Of a stretch of 64,000 nt of DNA, positions 6,978-64,000 are shown piece after piece. The translations under genes were made by a program, and so were the position numbers. A model generated the notes under the pieces. It did no database searches. It was not told where the DNA came from and worked only from the letters and a program-made list of their open reading frames with translations. The first letter of the stretch is position 1. Every line of letters begins with the position of its first letter. The stretch lies in assembly GCA_021383565.1 (NCBI GenBank), contig CP079699.1, positions 1,054,001-1,118,000 on the forward strand, in the 5' to 3' direction. Source of the DNA: Levilactobacillus brevis. GTDB lineage: Bacteria > Bacillota > Bacilli > Lactobacillales > Lactobacillaceae.

Positions 6978-9900
6978 CTAGTCGTCACCGTGCTTTCTAT
7001 TCTTGCCACCAAAGTACCACCATGAGCCACCAGTTACCGCTGCAATTGCAGCTAGGATTGATCCCCAAAGTGTCAGGTTGTTACCATCCTTTTGTGCGCT
7101 CTGATCGGCTGTCGTTCCATCACTAGTCGTGGCCGAGTTGGCAGCCCCACTCTTCGATGCACTCGGCTTGTCAGCAGACTTCTTATCCGACGAGTCATTT
7201 GCAGAAGAACTAGCGTTATTGCCATTAGCAACTGGATTAGCTAGGTTAGTAGCAACGGGTTGCTCGCCTGTTTCTGCGGGTGATGAGCTTGCAGTGCCAA
7301 GCAACATAGCCATTGCGGAAGCTGTTCCAGCGTAAGTCCCAGCTGTACCCACACCAGCGTTCGCATCAGCATTTGAACTACTGTTATTGCTACCAGTTTC
7401 AGCACCATTTCCACCATTACCAGCAGAACCGGAATTGCTACCGTTAGAATCAGAACCGTTGCCATTACCAGTGTTAGAACCACTATCGGCATTCGAGTCA
7501 CTGTCGGAATCAGAGTCGCTATCACTGTCCGAATCTGAGTCACTATCAGAGTCCGAGTCACTGTCTGAATCAGAGTCGCTATCCGAGTCGGAATCGCTAT
7601 CCGAGTCAGAGTCACTATCTGAATCGGAATCACCATCTGAGTCGGAGTCGCTATCACTGTCCGAATCTGAGTCACTATCAGAGTCCGAGTCACTGTCGGA
7701 ATCCGAGTCGCTATCTGAGTCGGAATCACTGTCGGAATCAGAGTCGCTGTCGGAATCCGAATCACTATCGGAATCAGAGTCACTATCGGAATCAGAATCA
7801 CTGTCGGAATCACTGTCTGAGTCTGAGTCACTGTCGGAGTCGGAATCACTGTCTGAGTCTGAGTCACTGTCAGAATCTGAATCACTGTCTGAGTCAGAGT
7901 CACTGTCGGAATCAGAGTCGCTATCCGAGTCGGAATCGCTATCCGAGTCAGAGTCACTATCGGAATCAGAATCACTATCTGAGTCGGAATCGCTATCCGA
8001 GTCAGAGTCACTATCGGAATCAGAATCACTGTCGGAATCTGAATCGCTGTCAGAGTCGGAATCACTGTCGGAATCAGAGTCGCTATCTGAGTCTGAGTCG
8101 CTATCCGAGTCAGAATCTGAATCGCTGTCAGAGTCGGAATCACTATCTGAGTCGGAATCACTGTCGGAATCAGAATCACTGTCTGAGTCTGAGTCGCTAT
8201 CTGAGTCTGAGTCACTGTCTGAGTCCGAGTCGCTGTCGGAATCCGAATCGCTATCTGAATCAGAGTCACTGTCTGAGTCCGAATCACTGTCTGAGTCCGA
8301 GTCACTGTCGGAATCCGAATCGCTGTCAGAGTCCGAATCACTATCCGAGTCAGAATCACTGTCAGAATCTGAATCGCTGTCTGAGTCGGAATCCGAATCA
8401 CTATCAGAGTCACTGTCTGAGTCGGAGTCACTGTCTGAGTCGGAATCGCTATCCGAGTCAGAGTCACTATCGGAATCAGAATCACTATCTGAGTCGGAAT
8501 CGCTGTCGGAGTCGGAATCACTGTCGGAATCTGAATCGCTGTCGGAGTCGGAATCACTATCTGAGTCAGAGTCGCTGTCGGAATCAGAATCACTATCTGA
8601 GTCGGAATCACTGTCGGAATCCGAGTCGCTATCCGAGTCAGAGTCACTATCTGAGTCGGAATCACTGTCAGAGTCTGAGTCACTGTCAGAATCTGAATCG
8701 CTGTCTGAGTCCGAATCACTATCTGAGTCGGAGTCACTATCTGAGTCGGAGTCGCTATCCGAGTCGGAGTCACTGTCGGAGTCCGAGTCACTATCTGAAT
8801 CTGAATCGCTGTCTGAGTCCGAATCACTATCTGAGTCGGAGTCGCTGTCGGAATCAGAATCACTGTCGGAGTCTGAGTCGCTATCTGAATCGGAATCACT
8901 ATCAGAGTCGGAGTCACTATCTGAGTCCGAATCACTGTCAGAGTCTGAGTCACTGTCGGAATCAGAATCACTATCAGAGTCGGAGTCGCTATCGGAATCA
9001 GAATCACTGTCAGAGTCGGAATCGCTGTCGGAGTCCGAGTCACTGTCGGAGTCGGAATCGCTATCGGAATCAGAGTCACTATCAGAGCCCGAATCACTAT
9101 CTGAATCAGAGTCACTATCAGAATCAGAATCACTGTCGGAGTCGGAATCACTGTCGGAGTCCGAGTCACTATCTGAGTCGGAATCGCTATCCGAGTCGGA
9201 ATCGCTATCCGAATCGGAGTCACTGTCGGAGTCGGAATCGCTATCTGAATCAGAATCACTATCTGAATCAGAGTCACTATCCGAGTCAGAGTCACTATCG
9301 GAATCCGAATCACTATCAGAGTCGGAATCACTATCTGAGTCAGAGTCACTGTCAGAATCGGAGTCGCTATCCGAGTCAGAGTCACTGTCAGAATCTGAAT
9401 CGCTGTCGGAATCCGAATCACTGTCAGAGTCTGAGTCACTGTCAGAGTCTGAGTCACTGTCGGAATCCGAATCACTATCAGAGTCCGAGTCCGAATCACT
9501 ATCGGAATCAGAGTCACTATCGGAATCCGAATCGCTATCCGAGTTGGGGTCTGAATCACTGTCTGAGTCAGAGTCGCTGTCAGAATCTGAGTCGCTATCT
9601 GAATCGGAGTCACTGTCAGAATCGGAATCAATATCGGAATCGGAGTCACTATCTGAGTCAGAATCACTGTCTGAGTCAGAGTCACTGTCAGAGTTCGAGT
9701 CACTATCTGAATCAGAGTCACTGTCGGAATCGGAGTCGCTATCCGAGTCGGAGTCGCCATCCGAGTCGGAGTCACTATCGGAATCTGAATCGCTGTCAGA
9801 GTCGGAATCACTATCGGAGTCGGAGTCACTGTCAGAATCGGAGTCGCTATCTGAGTCGGAGTCACTGTCGGAATCACTGTCAGAATCTGAATCGCTGTCT

Positions 9901-12900
9901 GAGTCGGAATCACTATCAGAGTCGCTGTCGGAATCCGAATCGCTATCTGAGTCAGAATCACTATCGGAGTCGGAATCGCTATCTGAATTATCTTCCGCAG
10001 CAATCGCTAAATTAGCATAGCTTAACGCGTCATTTGCTGCACTGGAAGCTTTATCCTTTGCTGTCTTAGCTGCGGAGGCTGCAGATTGTGCCTGAGAAGC
10101 ATAATCCTTAGCAGCCGCATTGTCGCCAGCAGCTTCTGCCGATTTAGCATTATTGTAATGTTCAGCAGCTGTTGAGGCAGCAGCTGAGGCTTCCGAAGCT
10201 GCAGACGAAGCTGTTGCTGCCGCGTCTTGTGCCTGGGTTGCGTATGAAGCTGCGCTAGAATTATTGCCCGCATACTGATCAGCAACGTTAGCATAAGAGC
10301 TTGCTACAGAAGCGTAATTATCGGCTTCTGCTGCGGCCGAGGCTGCTTCCGAGGCTGCCGATTCAGCATCTTCAGAGGTTGTACCATTAACTGTTAACAA
10401 TCCGGCACCCAACGTGGTTGTTGTTCCACCAGAAGTAATCTTTAAGAAGTAGTAACCACCTTGGTTAGTCTTAACATCAGACAAGGAAAGTGTGGCGCTC
10501 GTTGCGCCAGCAATTGCTTCTTGCGTTCCATTTTCAGTACTTGCGTAATACCACTGATAAGTCGCCGTTTCCGAGCTAGATCCTGCATCAGTAGCAGGTG
10601 TCCATTCTAAATCTTCGCCGGCGTTAACCGTCTGATCGTTCAGACCACTACCAACCGTAACTACCTTAGTTGCCGTATACGTGGTGCCATCAGCATTGGT
10701 AATCATTGCAGTAATTGTTGTTGTTCCTTTAGCACCTTCAACGGTCTTGAACACACCGGAAGAATCAATGGTGGCTACTGCCGTGTTACTACTGGTCCAG
10801 GTCACATTACCCGTAGCATTTACAGGATTCGTGTTTGCCACATAGTTCGTCATATCATTTGTGAAGACGTAACTATCACCCTGAATCTCAATTCCCGTCG
10901 CAGGAATTTCGCTGTCATAAATGTCCACTTCGGCTAAATTACTGTAAAGCGTATCCCCTATCAAACCGTATGAGGACTTTACTTGGAAAATCAAAGTTCC
11001 TGTGTACGTTTCACTGGTCTTAACGGTCAGCGTTGAGCTCAAAGTAGAGGTTGTGATGAAACCACCCGTCTTATCGGAAACATCTTGCGATTCCAGATAC
11101 CCGGCAGACACTGCCTTAGCGACCGTCATCCACTTACCGTTAGCCTGAACGTACCAAGTACTTGAAGCACCAAAGATATTTCCAAAACCAGCAACCTTAG
11201 AAGTCGTCGTCAGCGAAATTGTACTCCCAGCAACGGTCGTCGTTAATGCTGCTGGTTGCTGCGTGTACCCGGAACTCATGGTAAGTCCCCAAAGGGTTGA
11301 GGCATTCCCACTTGGTTTTCCATAGGTACTGCTAGTGTTGTTCGAGTAGTTCACTGCATAGCTGGCAGCGACTGTTGCGTCGGATGCGGCTGTCGTTGCC
11401 GCTACTGCGTAGGAGCTGGCATCGACCATAGCTGAATCAGCTGAGGCCGCAAACTGACTTGCCTCCACAAAGTTACCCACGCTAACCGCCGACGAAGCCA
11501 ACGTCATGTAGCTCGTCGCTGCAAGTGCTGCCTCATCACCGTAAGCAGCATCCAGTAAAGCCGACTGAGCGTAATAGGCTGCCTGGGCCACGTAGGAAGA
11601 ACCTAGACTCGTGTTAGTCTTCATCGCCGTCGCTAACGAATTAGCAACTGATGAAGCTGCACTCGCTTCTGTCGCCGCAGTCGAAGTAGCTACTGCGGCT
11701 GAACTGGCTAACGTAGTCGTATTAGCTAATTGTGCGTCAACAATCGTCTTCGTTGCTGAACTGGCCGCTGCTGAGGCTGCACTCAGTTGATCGTTGGTAT
11801 AAGCCAAATAGGTAACCGCTTCGTCATACATCATTTCTGCGGTATCTGCATCACCTTCCGCTGCCGCTGAAGCTGCCGTTGAAGCTGCTTCGGCTGCCTC
11901 ATTGGCATTGCTTAAGGCCGCAGAAGCCGCAGAGTTTGCTGCTTCATAGAAATCGGTAGCTCCAGAATTAAAGTCAGCAGCTGAAGAGTAGGCATTCGTC
12001 GCATCATTAGCATGAGACCCAGCAATCGTTGCCAGATTAGCCGCTTCATTCGCAGCACTGGCCGTTAATTCAGCATAGCTAGAAGCCAAGTAGTCATTAG
12101 CCTTAGCCTTCTCCAATGCCGTATTCACGTGACCCAGTGCGGTGCTGGCCGCGGTACTAGCCGCGGTGTTGTATGAGCTTGCAGTTGAAGCTGCCGCGGC
12201 TGCATCTAGTGCGTAAGAACTGGCCGCGGAATAATCCTTAGCCGTTTCAAAAGCCGCTGCGTTACTGTAAGCCGTGCTGGCTGCCATTGCCGCACTTGTT
12301 GCGCTAGAAGCATTGGTTGCCGCAATGGAAGCTTGCGTTTTAGCCATTTCGGCATAGGACTTCGCTGCAACAATATTCTCAATATCCGCAACTTCATAGG
12401 CATTGGCAATCGCGCTGCTAGCTGCCGAAGTTGAGGCATTGGCCGCATCCGCGTAACTTGCGGCCAGGCTCGCCGAACTTGACGCTTGATCCGTGTAATC
12501 TCCGTTAGCATCTGTCACAACGACGGTTAAAACATTAGACGCCGCTTGGATTGATGACGTAATCACAACCGCAGTGACTTTTTTACCCGTAACTACTGCT
12601 TGGAAGTAATATGTTCCTGCTGTATTTAAGGTGATGTTATTGATCGTCGTTGTCTTGCTTCCAGTGGTTGTTTTTAATTCATTCCAAGCCTTACCATCCG
12701 TTGAGTAATACCACGTATACGTCTGTGTCCCGGTCAGAGAATAAAGCGTCCCTAGCCCACTAATGGTCGTAGTAATGGTTAAAGTATCTCCTACAGAAAT
12801 CGCATCATTGTCAATCGCTGTAACTAATGTGGCACCATCCGCATCGGTGGCTTGACCCTCAACATGTGTATTAAACTTTTCTGCCAACGTTGCAGCAACA

Positions 12901-14603
12901 TCGGCATCACTAGCTGCAGATGACGCTAAGACTGCGAAACTCGAAGCAGCTTTAGCATAAGAAGTGGCGTCCTTAGCGTTGGCGGCGTTAGTAGCGTTGA
13001 CCGCAGCCGTTGAAGCTGCTGCGGCGGCTGCCGCGGCGATAGTTGCTGAACTGGCAGCATCAGCGGCATAAAGAACGGATTGATCACCTTCGTACTTTGC
13101 TGCTTCGCTCGCTGAAACGCCGGCGGCACTGGCAGCCAAACTCGCGCTGACAGCGCTAACTGTAGCACCACTAGCAATGTTCGCTACGGCCAGTGTTGAG
13201 GCTTGTTCAGCCTGATCTTCAGCAGTTGTCTTGGCTTCTGTTGCCGTTGATAACGTGTTCACAGCTTCGCTCGCCAAACTGTTAGCCGTCGAAAGCGCTC
13301 CCATTGCAGCCGTGTATTCTGTATCATCTGTTGCTGTGGCAGCAGCAGCCGCAGCACTGCTGGCCACCGTCCAAGCCTGAGCTGCTTTAATAACTGCTTC
13401 ATTCAACGCTGCAGCTGCGCTGGAAGCTTCCGCCGCAGCGCTGTTGGCCGACGAATAAGCTGCCAAGGCTGCCGAATTATTCTTATCATATTGCGTAGCC
13501 GTGTAAGCACTACTTGCAGCAACCGCCGCCGCGGAAGCCAAGTCCGTAGCCACACTAGCAGCAGAGTTCACGTTCACATTAGCACTGCTAACCAAATTGA
13601 CAATCTGTTTCGTCGCGGCGTTACGCGCATCCGTAGCTGCTGTGGTCGCTAATGAAGCATACGAACTCACAACATCTGTGTAGGAACTCGCCATTGATAA
13701 GGCATTCACGTAAGCCACCGTATTAGAACCAACATCACCAGCAGCACTACCCGCAGCGATATCAATCGATGCTTGGGAATACATGGCGGCCAAACTATTA
13801 TAATGCTCGACAAAATCATAGGCTTTTTCTGCTTGCTTGTAGGCGCTTTGCGCAGCACTATTGGCCGCTTGGACGTCTAAAGCATTTTGCGATTCCACCA
13901 CTGCGGCATAACTGCTAGCAGCGCTAGCCGCCGATGACGCAGTGGCCAAGTCAGCAGCTGCAGCTGAATTTTCGGCCGCAGTACTGCTGTTGGTAGCAGA
14001 GCTGGATACCGTAGCGCTTTCATAAACAGGTGTGACAACAGTTTTCTTCGTTGTAGCCACCCGCGCAACGGTCTGACTAACTTCTTTGGTCAGCGTCACA
14101 TCAACCTTGGCAGCTGTGGCAAGACTAGCAGCCGTACTGGCCGTATTCTCGGCAGTGCTGGATGCACTCGTCGCCTCGGCTGAAGTGGCTACCACGCTGG
14201 TTGTACTTGTCGCAGCGTTTGATGATGTTGTTTCTGAACTACTGCTAGTCTCAACTTTTTCATCTTCTTGAACCGCGGCTACTGAAGCAGCCGAAGATGT
14301 TGCGGCACTACTAGCCGTCGAACCAGATGCGCTATTAGCGGCTACCCCCGTGGTGCTCGCTGACGTGGCTCCTGATTCTACTTCATCTGCAGCTGAACTC
14401 GCTGAACTAGCCGCCGATGAGACGACTTTGGCATTGGTTTGTGTGTCAGCTTGACTGCTGGTATCCGCACTCGCAGTCAGTGTTCCGGCCCCCAAAAGCG
14501 AAAACGATGCTAATGCAGCGAAAACCCAGGTTTTCCCTACCTTGTACATCTTATACCGCAATTTTGGATCGCCATTAAAAGCTTTATTCCGCATGAATTT
14601 CAC
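6978..14603 (-). CDS. Giant Ser-Asp-repeat surface protein with KxYKxGKxW signal peptide
   Basis: A 2541-residue secreted protein. Residues 1-47 are a long signal peptide with KMYKVGKTW and probable cleavage after TASA. Then come Ala/Ser-rich helical stalk segments (about 48-585, 700-1090, 1410-1535), separated by beta domains: Ig-like near 590-700, a second near 1095-1230, a Big_2-like domain near 1233-1318 ([17 protein letters not shown]) and an Ig-like domain near 1320-1406. Residues about 1537-2370 are almost pure Ser-Asp. The C-terminus has one hydrophobic segment ([17 protein letters not shown]) and the basic tail KNRKHGDD, but no LPxTG motif that I can see. The start is GTG with AAGGAGG 10 bases upstream. 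It is flanked by glycosyltransferases that probably decorate it; adhesion is a likely but unproven role. Confidence 0.9.
7494..9993 (-). repeat. 2.5-kb Ser-Asp repeat tract with 18-bp codon-level period
   Basis: The coding strand repeats GAY-TCN-GAY-TCN-GAY-AGY, so an AGY serine codon recurs every third dipeptide. Occasional 12- and 24-bp units show unit loss or gain. Rare breaks encode Gly, Asn, Ile, Pro or Gly/Asn pairs (for example near 7634, 9087, 9544, 9631, 9752). The tract accounts for about a third of the surface protein. Confidence 0.95.
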
Positions 14604-21657: not shown

Positions 21658-21677
21658 TTAACTTTTCTAGTTTTCAC

Positions 21678-22082
21678 TGGCCGCCTACCGTTCGCGCCAG
21701 ATGAGCTGGAACGCGGTGGGCAGGACGCCCTGAGCCTGAGAAACGGTCTCAGGACTCGCTTGGAACCGCCCCAGACCGGCGTTTCCAAGTCGCCATTATC
21801 TAACCGGCTAACGCCGATCAGATAATCCCACGGCTGAGCTCATCTGGCGCTTCACTCTCGGCTACAATGGTGACACCCAATCAGACATGTTGTGGTTCCC
21901 AAACACGTAGACTTGCAAAGAATTTACACCGCTTCCCAGTAAAGTCACAATCTACGCTGGAGGAAGACAGTAATGGCGCCAGCCGTGACAACCCAGTTAG
22001 CCGACGTTTCTTGCCGGGTTACTGGGTGGGACGACTTGGGAGACTGGCGACTTTTGCCAGGCTTCCAAGCGAGGTGGAAGCC
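21678..22082 (+). ncRNA. Structured intergenic element, copy A (candidate large ncRNA)
   Basis: Perfect helices: P0 21678-21683/21859-21864; P1 21694-21707/21837-21850 (14 bp); P2 GTGGG/CCCAC 21716-21720/21827-21831; hairpins P3 21735-21740/21748-21753, P4 21759-21765/21783-21789, P5 21795-21801/21820-21826; then a CGTAGA/TCTACG helix (about 21906-21955), P6 21991-21997/22021-22027, P7 22044-22048/22056-22060, P8 22060-22066/22076-22082. Single-stranded blocks such as CGCGGTGGGCAGGAC and AATCCCACGGCTGAG are identical to copy B at 63622, whereas the helices differ in sequence but still pair. A TATACT box lies 20 bases upstream. No coding function is evident. The remaining bases of 21438-22156 hold only the terminator-like hairpin and the glycosyltransferase 4 leader. 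Confidence 0.7.
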
Positions 22083-22156
22083 CGCTCCTTGGCTGAAACC
22101 GATCCCCACAGCAGGCAGAATTACTGTTAGCCGCAGGCAATGATTTAATCAATCGA

Positions 22157-23077
22157 CTAACGGATAAGGCGGTCAGCACCATCCAGTATTTCCCGTTGAA
22201 TCACCCGTGCCATGTCAGTGGGCAACGGTGCGTAACAGGTGATCCAGCGCTGGTCGAACGGCTGGTAAAAGGACAACCGCGCACAGTGCAACGCCTGCCG
22301 GTGAATCCACGGATTGGTCTGCGTACCGTAAAGCCAGTCCCCCAGCAACGGATGCCCCAGCGACTGGCAGTGCACCCGAATCTGGTGAGTCCGGCCCGTA
22401 TACAGCTTAATAGCCAATAGGCTGGCCGTCTTGGACTGGGTTACCACCCGTAGTGCCGTCTTGGCTTGGCGGCCATCCGGACGTACCATGCGTTTGATAA
22501 AGGAACCCGGGGCCCGCCCAATGGGGGCCGTAACCGTCACCTGTCGTGGGGTGACCCGGCCCGTAGCCACCGCAATATAGCGCTTATCCAGTTGGCCCAG
22601 CTTTAACTGCTTATCCAAAATAGAATGGGCAAAGTGATGCTTGGCAAAGAGCACGGCACCACTGGTCTCCCGATCCAACCGCGTCACGATGTGGGTCACC
22701 GTGCTGGGCGCCTGAATCGTGACGAGATGGCCCTTCACCCGATTAGCTAGGGTATCATCCGGATACAAATGTGATGGCACCGAGGCCATCCCCGCTGGCT
22801 TATTCACCACTAGGAAGTGTTCATCCTCGTAGAGAATCTCCAGGGGCGCAAAGGATGTGCTCACGTTGGCATTGGCTGGTTCGGGGGGCAGCTGTAGCCC
22901 CACCGTTTGTCCGGGTCGCGCCATCGCAATGACACGTACCTCCTCACCGTCTAGGGTCACGACACCGCCGTGAAATTTCACACGTTTGAGAAACGTCCGG
23001 GTCACGCCATGATCCATCAAGACCGTCCGCACATGCATGGGACTAGTGCCCGTCACGCGCCACGCAAAACTGGTCAT
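22157..23077 (-). CDS. RluA-family pseudouridine synthase (YjbO type)
   Basis: A 306-residue pseudouridine synthase. The catalytic aspartate is in TRLDRETSG near residue 135. Other RluA features are VVNKPAGM near 92, [18 protein letters not shown] near 245 and [10 protein letters not shown]. It converts uridine to pseudouridine in structured RNA, probably 23S rRNA; the exact site cannot be read from sequence. It overlaps the end of nadK by 4 bases (ATGA) and is the last gene of the relQ-nadK-rluA operon, the same order as yjbM-yjbN-yjbO in Bacillus. Confidence 0.9.
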
Positions 23078-35276: not shown

Positions 35277-35357
35277 TGGTCGGTTGGCTAAAGGTTGCAA
35301 GCTATAAAACAGCTAAAACCCTTAGTATGACTAAGGATGCCACCCATGATAATAGGC

Positions 35358-35455
35358 TGGCTGCCTTACCGTTCGCCAAATTTTACTCACTCACGGCTAA
35401 ACGAGATGTATCCAATTAAACTAGCCGAGCGTTGCCACGCCCGCGATGTCGCCAC
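35358..35455 (+). repeat. Structured intergenic element, copy C (module deleted)
   Basis: It shares GCCTTACCGTTCGCCAAATT (35363-35382) with copy B, then jumps directly to ACTCACTCACGGCTA and TGTATCCAATTAAA, which in copy B come after a 130-base multi-helix module. It ends after a CACGCC-GCGATGT match. The outer P0 pairing (TGGCTG 35358-35363 with CGGCTA 35394-35399) survives. In 35277-35616 only this remnant and two terminators are seen. Confidence 0.7.
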
Positions 35456-35547
35456 GTTCAGTTGTTACCTGTACCTGCTAGTAGCTCTCCCCCACTCTTG
35501 TGTTTCCAATTTGCTTGAAAGTCTCCCGCCTATTGCTTATCATCATT

Positions 35548-63541: not shown

Positions 63542-63621
63542 TAGTTATGTAGCTGAGGGGTGAAAGCTAGAATCCGCAGTGTGCCAAGGATAAGACTCAT
63601 TATAATACGATAATCGCGTAC

Positions 63622-64000
63622 TGGCCGCCTTACCGTTCGCCAAATTTGGTCTGGATCGCGGTGGGCAGGACCGGGAAAAGCCCAAGAACGGTCTTTTCCC
63701 TCGCTTTGAGCCGTCAACCCGCGTCTCAAAGACGCCATTTTCCAAGCAAAATCCTTGGAAAATCCCACGGCTGAGACCAAATTTGACTCACTCACGGCTA
63801 CTTGAAGTGTATCCAATTAAATCGGCCAAACGTGGTCACGCCAGCGATGTTACCGTAAGTTTAATGGGTTTCAACCAGCGTAACCGGAGGCAGCCAGAGA
63901 TGGAGGTAGCCGTGGCAGCGGTGTTAGCTGACGTTTTGAGTCAGCTTACAGCGCGGGACGTGTTTGGAGACTGGCGATTCTTGTCAGGCTTCAAGCCGAG
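63622..64000 (+). ncRNA. Structured intergenic element, copy B (candidate large ncRNA, cut by window end)
   Basis: Helices: P0 63622-63627/63795-63800; P1 63641-63652/63774-63785 (12 bp); P2 GTGGG/CCCAC 63661-63665/63764-63768; hairpins P3 63673-63680/63693-63700, P4 63704-63710/63725-63731, P5 63737-63746/63754-63763; GTTAC/GTAAC (about 63849-63884); P6 63922-63932/63940-63950; P7 63971-63975/63983-63987; P8 63987-63990/63994-63997. Order, spacing and unpaired blocks match copy A; helix sequences do not. A perfect TATAAT (63601-63606) lies 15 bases upstream of P0. The element continues past the window. Confidence 0.7.

Follow-up and report, generated by a model that had tools for sequence, protein, structure and literature searches.

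Two copies of a structured repeat at the locus

The window, a 64,000-nucleotide stretch of a Levilactobacillus brevis contig (CP079699.1, assembly GCA_021383565.1, positions 1,054,001 to 1,118,000), carries two copies of a dispersed, structured repeat and a remnant of a third (Table 1). Copy A adjoins a host gene for an RNA pseudouridylate synthase. Copy B starts at 63553, directly after its target duplication at 63545, and extends past the window end, and a deleted remnant related to copy B lies between the two. The sequence-only reading had proposed a structured RNA of more than 400 bases at positions 21678-22082; an element does lie there, but it is larger, its arms occupying 21681-22140 and its outer inverted repeat running from 21677 to 22176. 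A terminal inverted repeat (TIR) of about 30 bp is seen in loci L030 and L042. The four unpaired blocks that had been quoted as common to copies A and B are present in the sequence, as are the quoted P1 helices of both copies, and the helices differ on both sides between the copies.

Table 1. Repeat copies and adjoining gene in the window (R1 is the covariance model of the right arm).
Feature	Positions	Strand	Remarks
Copy A, left TIR	21677..21706	+	Inner part doubles as the 5′ strand of P1
Copy A, left (5′) arm	21681..21863	-	P1, P2 (GTGGG/CCCAC) and three hairpins; R1 match on minus strand, 56 bits, E 3e-15
Copy A, spacer between arms	21864..21954	.	Little conservation among A-type copies
Copy A, right (3′) arm	21955..22140	+	Fold as in left arm; R1 match on plus strand, 201 bits, E 6e-60, this arm being one of the 36 training sequences of R1
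Copy A, right TIR, decayed	22157..22176	-	Final codons and stop of the pseudouridine synthase gene lie here
RNA pseudouridylate synthase, host gene adjoining copy A	22157..23077	-	PF00849, 8e-28; relative in 35/35 genomes
Third copy, a deleted B-type remnant	35287..35466	+	Outer TIR, leader, left arm without clover-leaf; blocks of 89%, 96% and 76% identity
Copy B, target-site duplication TTATGTAG	63545..63552	.	8/8 identical; second copy past the window end, after 64143
Copy B, left outer TIR of B subfamily, CTRAAGGTTGAAAG type	63553..63566	+	14 bp, as in the B subfamily
Copy B, left arm	63625..63799	-	R1 match on minus strand, 52.7 bits
Copy B, right arm	63882..64000	+	R1 match, 199 bits; arm cut by window end, reaching 64067 in the genome

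Each arm is about 185 nt long and consists of a foot helix, a long covarying helix P1, a conserved helix P2 (GTGGG/CCCAC type) and a junction with three hairpins. A GGA/GNA internal loop was seen by eye at the foot of arms from several genera, where the strand that matches model R1 (186 positions) often begins AGCYGGAGG and ends CCGNARGC. This loop resembles the foot that is conserved in REP hairpins.

A profile seeded with the 5′ arms of copies A and B matches the reverse complement of the same element's 3′ half at E ~1e-37, a value reached after four rounds in which the opposite-strand matches were themselves included in the profile; single-sequence profiles already give opposite-strand self-similarity at 1e-4 to 1e-10. 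Part of this similarity is expected because hairpins resemble their own complement, but unpaired blocks common to both halves (by eye) argue for a true, inverted homology of the 5′ and 3′ halves. Read as inverted homologues, the halves make the element a dimer of ~185-nt arms, which replaces the single 400-nt fold first proposed.

The arrangement of arms follows one pattern. Among R1 matches less than 400 bp apart in the same L. brevis genome, 42 neighbouring pairs are in minus-plus order, none in plus-minus order and one in plus-plus order. Arm spacing is 70-120 bp in 38 of the 42 dimers, with the R1 strands directed outward, and 49 of 133 R1 matches are unpaired. The minus-plus order recurs in other genera and in genomes G015 and G012; the spacer measures 36-365 bp in the 16 dimers read, and inspection by eye found no protein gene in any of these 16 spacers. 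Some dimers are built of two right-type arms. Intrinsic-terminator-like sequences were seen by eye in the long dimer spacers of four loci (L158, L159, L163 and L063), as if the arms had inserted on both sides of a terminator belonging to the host. A coding role for the 3′ arm was considered and dropped, since its RBS-like GGAGG and following ATG lead into no conserved frame among copies compared by eye.

Copy number, insertion sites and ends

A whole-genome DNA search with copy A gave 60 matches, which merge to about 40 places, and two subfamilies are distinguished, A-type (copy A) and B-type (the copy at 63.6 kb). In this 2.68-Mb genome, model R1 has at least 133 matches (E 1e-3 or better; best 150 of 887 candidates scored), and a second near-complete genome (G030) contains at least 140 at 1e-6 (best 150 of 1316 candidates scored). 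The covariance-model search for further homologues that had been proposed thus yielded many of them, with strong covariation, and the supposed two-copy RNA gene gives way to an insertional repeat that is dispersed through the genome in more than 100 arms. Within Levilactobacillus, R1 is present at E 1e-4 or better in 33 of 35 genomes and reaches at least 75 matches in 20; G004 and G024 have no match and G011 has two. A sample of the family has R1 in 28 of 151 genomes and 9 of 40 genera, with at least 17 matches in 14 genomes and 1-7 in 12. Across the order, under stricter filters and with the best 8 candidates per genome scored, 11 of 295 genomes carry R1, and all 11 are Lactobacillaceae. Searches of the plasmid and phage collections with copy A gave no match, and an origin from either was discarded on that ground.

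The copies are dispersed, insertional and nearly all intergenic. Gene context was read with a home-made gene finder for 49 of 91 merged elements, those in fetched loci with enough flank: 48 are intergenic and one overlaps an open reading frame, with 25 lying in codirectional gaps, 18 in convergent and 3 in divergent ones, and two having no called left gene. The 39 background gaps in the window comprise 28 codirectional, 5 convergent and 6 divergent ones, so that convergent gaps are enriched among the elements (18/46 vs 5/39, Fisher p 0.0075). Solo arms in codirectional gaps are sense in four cases and antisense in seven, and in the loci seen the copies are tied to no single gene. This context looks like that of a tolerated insertion, not of a leader or riboswitch. 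At the copy A site itself, a comparison of 30 loci (the host locus and those of 29 of 34 relatives, with flanks of at most 1.5 kb, one flank being shortened in two of the 29) found arms in the host locus only and in 0 of 29 relatives; in the host genome, the last codons of the pseudouridine synthase gene are supplied by the right TIR of copy A.

The 20-bp end CTGGCCGCCTTACCGTTCGC occurs 125 times at up to 3 mismatches, against once for the reversed control. The ends of B-type elements resemble those of DDE-type MITEs. Full B-type elements measure 572-601 bp and have 14-bp TIRs. Target duplications were sought in ten B copies: three, including copy B, have an exact 8-bp duplication and two an exact 7-bp one, while one matches at 7/8, one at 6/7 and three show none clearly. 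Crossing the flanks of different B copies gave no exact match of 7 or more in 90 combinations (longest exact 6), against 5 of 10 true flanks at zero offset; when offsets and one mismatch were allowed, 4 of 90 had at least 6 matching positions, including one with 8 of 9. With TIRs and target-site duplication and without a transposase gene, the B subfamily falls within the definition of a MITE. In genus g38, some of 12 loci inspected by eye contain parts of the same outer TIR. The host genome contains 74 TIR matches, and no transposase-bearing pair was recognised among the positions looked over by eye. A-type elements have TIRs of their own, but none of 13 reaches 5 bp of exact duplication (one has 4 bp), which sets the A subfamily outside the MITE definition; for the same reason, the mechanism of A-type mobility is conjectural.

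IS200/RAYT transposases were considered as mobilisers and rejected. The Y1 domain (PF01797) occurs in 23 of 35 genomes and does not track repeat load: G020 and G029 lack PF01797 yet have at least 75 R1 matches, and G024 has one PF01797 and 0 R1 matches. None of 10 Y1 loci, taken with ~1.5-kb flanks, has an R1 match at E 1e-3. An apparent replication-strand bias of the repeat was also discarded, as it vanished (24/59 and 43/90) when GC skew and dnaA were used to locate origin and terminus.

Several copies are deleted in part or interrupted. Recurrent internal deletions are seen in four B copies (L022, L068, L069 and L074), with junctions near positions 579-594 and 733-747 of the search query, and a different deletion (556 to 772) in L072, where a perfect 8-bp target duplication is kept. 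At 35376-35400 in the window, and in L078 and L080, left arms lack the whole clover-leaf between the P1 strands, at a short palindromic CAAATTTG-type repeat; this loss looks like a hairpin-driven deletion during replication. In four other loci of the host genome (L025, L031, L041 and L077), the left arm is interrupted between P2 and the first hairpin, always at the same site, by an element with two reading frames and rve, HTH_21 and HTH_Tnp_1 domains, which by judgement belongs to the IS3 family. The shared insertion site makes the repeat a target for this IS3-type element.

Covariation and the strand that folds

Compensatory change was measured in alignments of left arms (A1) and right arms (A2) from the host genome and the same genus. 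Sorting of 115 units into left and right left 12 unclassified, and 4 more were dropped. For A1, 34 left arms were picked, three dropped (L047, L021 and L081) and L026 and L027 added (33 sequences); A2 began with 38 right-set rows, lost three (one a misplaced left arm) and gained L027 (36 sequences). In the right arms, 98.0% of cells pair and 28 of 47 pairs show two-sided change; doubly changed cells, which count sequences and not events, number 214, where shuffles give 63.5 ± 6.0 and slid controls no more than 25, and 0 of 500 shuffles match any of five measures. Sliding the partners by 1-3 columns lowers pairing to 26-41%, although slid controls are somewhat disadvantaged because the structures derive from the same alignments. 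The left arms behave similarly, with 96.9% of cells pairing, two-sided change in 17 of 32 pairs and 147 doubly changed cells against 44.9 ± 6.3 in shuffles; four of the five measures exceed all shuffles, while the fifth (further pair types) is equalled by 53 of 500. In genus g24, where 17 arms were aligned with MAFFT, 38 of the 49 pairs predicted change on both sides. The fold is thus maintained by compensatory change, chance being excluded, and the selection on a large, multi-helix, single-strand structure suspected from two copies is borne out.

G-U pairs in P0 and P7 had been read as working on the plus strand only. A choice of the plus strand by G-U pairs is correct for the 3′ arm, where 48 right arms have 111 G-U against 25 A-C pairs on the plus strand, but not for the 5′ arm, where 48 left arms have 55 G-U against 65 A-C; both counts use pairs predicted on both strands and, like the further figures, tally sequences rather than independent events, and three right-set rows are omitted. 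In other genera, read in the R1 orientation, the G-U:A-C ratios are 21:8 and 6:2 (two sets of g24), 21:11 (g38), 32:13 (g4) and 22:9 (g20), and a set of Levilactobacillus symmetric dimers with a few further arms gives 14:14. These six sets, 61 hand-picked arms, sum to 116:57, with single-set p values from 0.007 to 1; four favour R1 (p 0.007 to 0.11), one is too small and one is the 14:14 set, and the same loci hold unused R1 matches, among them L129, L148:5862, L149:1239, L152:1240, L097:1184 and L101:1501. The counts are taken to show that selection is strand-specific in the right arms and, for the four other genera, in most of the sets. An excess of G-U over A-C on one strand implies that this strand acts, as RNA or as single-stranded DNA (ssDNA), between which the counts do not tell. 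Earlier strand counts on a model-fitted alignment (52:26 for left/weak arms) leaned towards the model's own strand and were replaced. Folding energy was likewise uninformative as a guide to the strand, copy A being equally low against shuffles on both (z -5.53 and -5.42).

Known repeats and possible explanations

Rfam 15 has three matches in the window at the gathering score, none of them at the elements, and four weak matches at the element at E up to 10, the best of 18 bits; this HDV-type ribozyme match (E 0.67) was taken as chance. In 20 related loci searched at E up to 1, only one T-box and one tRNA match appeared, both away from the arms. The expectation that no known family would fit is therefore upheld, with no credible weaker match at the element or in these loci. 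GOLLD, ROOL, OLE and HEARO likewise have large, covarying, multi-helix folds, but the repeat differs from them in its lack of an Rfam 15 match and in its more than 100 arms in one genome.

By mode of life, the repeat resembles REP/BIME or bcr1 elements. REPs are about 20-40 nt long, whereas each arm of the repeat is a ~185-nt unit with a three-hairpin junction, and its B copies have TIRs and target duplications. REP/BIME elements with RAYT transposases number over 100 per genome, for the most part between genes, with palindromic units in inverted pairs, and are non-autonomous (Nunvar 2010, PMC2817692). The repeat is likewise of high copy number, intergenic and composed of inverted pairs of hairpin units, but it shows no cognate RAYT by either Y1 comparison made above. 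The bcr1 element of the Bacillus cereus group (147-167 bp; PMC2267715) is, judging from titles and a table, another structured dispersed element with mobile features; it belongs to another taxon and has about a third of the dimer's length, the likeness being one of description. With bacterial MITEs the B subfamily shares TIRs, target duplications of 7-8 bp, a lack of visible coding capacity and internally deleted forms, but the interior of the repeat is under compensatory selection, and the A subfamily lacks target duplication. Searches of the open-access PMC library yielded no description of the repeat, nor any match to literal sequence strings from it. To our knowledge, its architecture is larger and more elaborate than that of known structured dispersed bacterial repeats.

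The repeat is probably a non-coding, trans-mobilised family of Lactobacillaceae, MITE/REP-like but of a new, elaborate type. Its folded strand, as ssDNA or RNA, would be recognised in trans, most likely by the machinery that mobilises the element, in the way a RAYT recognises a REP hairpin; a copy that could no longer fold would cease to spread. Against this reading count the mismatch with Y1, the absence of exact target duplications from A-type elements, the absence of copy A from the plasmid and phage collections, the absence of strand preference in left arms and symmetric dimers, and the lack of a replication-strand bias, which some ssDNA transposition would produce. The same folds could instead belong to a functional non-coding RNA, with the plus strand or each arm's R1 strand transcribed and working in trans, and with the transposon ends explaining spread only. 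The G-U excess on the right-arm plus strand and in other genera, the complex junction fold and a TATAAT-like box, seen by eye in the conserved leader upstream of the left arm of B copies, would suit such an RNA. It is nonetheless an unlikely explanation, as a consensus promoter scan passes over the leader box, the R1 strands of a dimer's two arms lie on opposite strands, the orientation of solo arms gives no sign of read-through use, and the copies seen are tied to no single gene.

REP/BIME elements bind gyrase or IHF, and a double-strand DNA cruciform bound by a host protein, with RNA irrelevant, would account for the inverted-pair layout and the enrichment in convergent gaps; the repeated loss of the clover-leaf between P1 strands also suggests DNA hairpins. 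A symmetric structure, however, should not yield so strong an excess of G-U over A-C on one right-arm strand, and a cruciform site seems improbable. Still harder to credit, and very improbable, is passive decay of ancient MITEs, in which the structure would be a by-product of inverted repeats without selection. The unpaired matches, the deleted copies and the divergence of A-type copies would fit decay, but compensatory change in both arms far beyond shuffled and slid controls, and again in most predicted pairs of genus g24, is hard to obtain by it.

The trans-mobilised reading can be carried further, tentatively, to a new kind of mobile element. Its two ends would be large clover-leaf modules, one per strand, that have to fold single-stranded (as RNA or ssDNA) and are recognised in trans by some enzyme, and it would have colonised most species of the genus and several further genera; both genomes with a fuller count, this one and G030, contain over 100 arms. 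The repeat opens to test the idea that an enzyme acting in trans recognises single-strand folds at the two ends of a mobile element, and it would show that bacterial dispersed repeats can equal structured RNAs in elaborateness. It is a large covarying structure that has many natural variants per genome and no Rfam 15 match, and these variants amount to a natural collection of mutants of a junction fold. In food lactobacilli, the repeat may also mislead the annotation of genes and RNAs. Elsewhere in the window, the minus strand carries a 23S-methyl RNA motif (RF01065; positions 266-366, 70 bits, above cut-off) and an open reading frame of 2541 codons (6978-14603).
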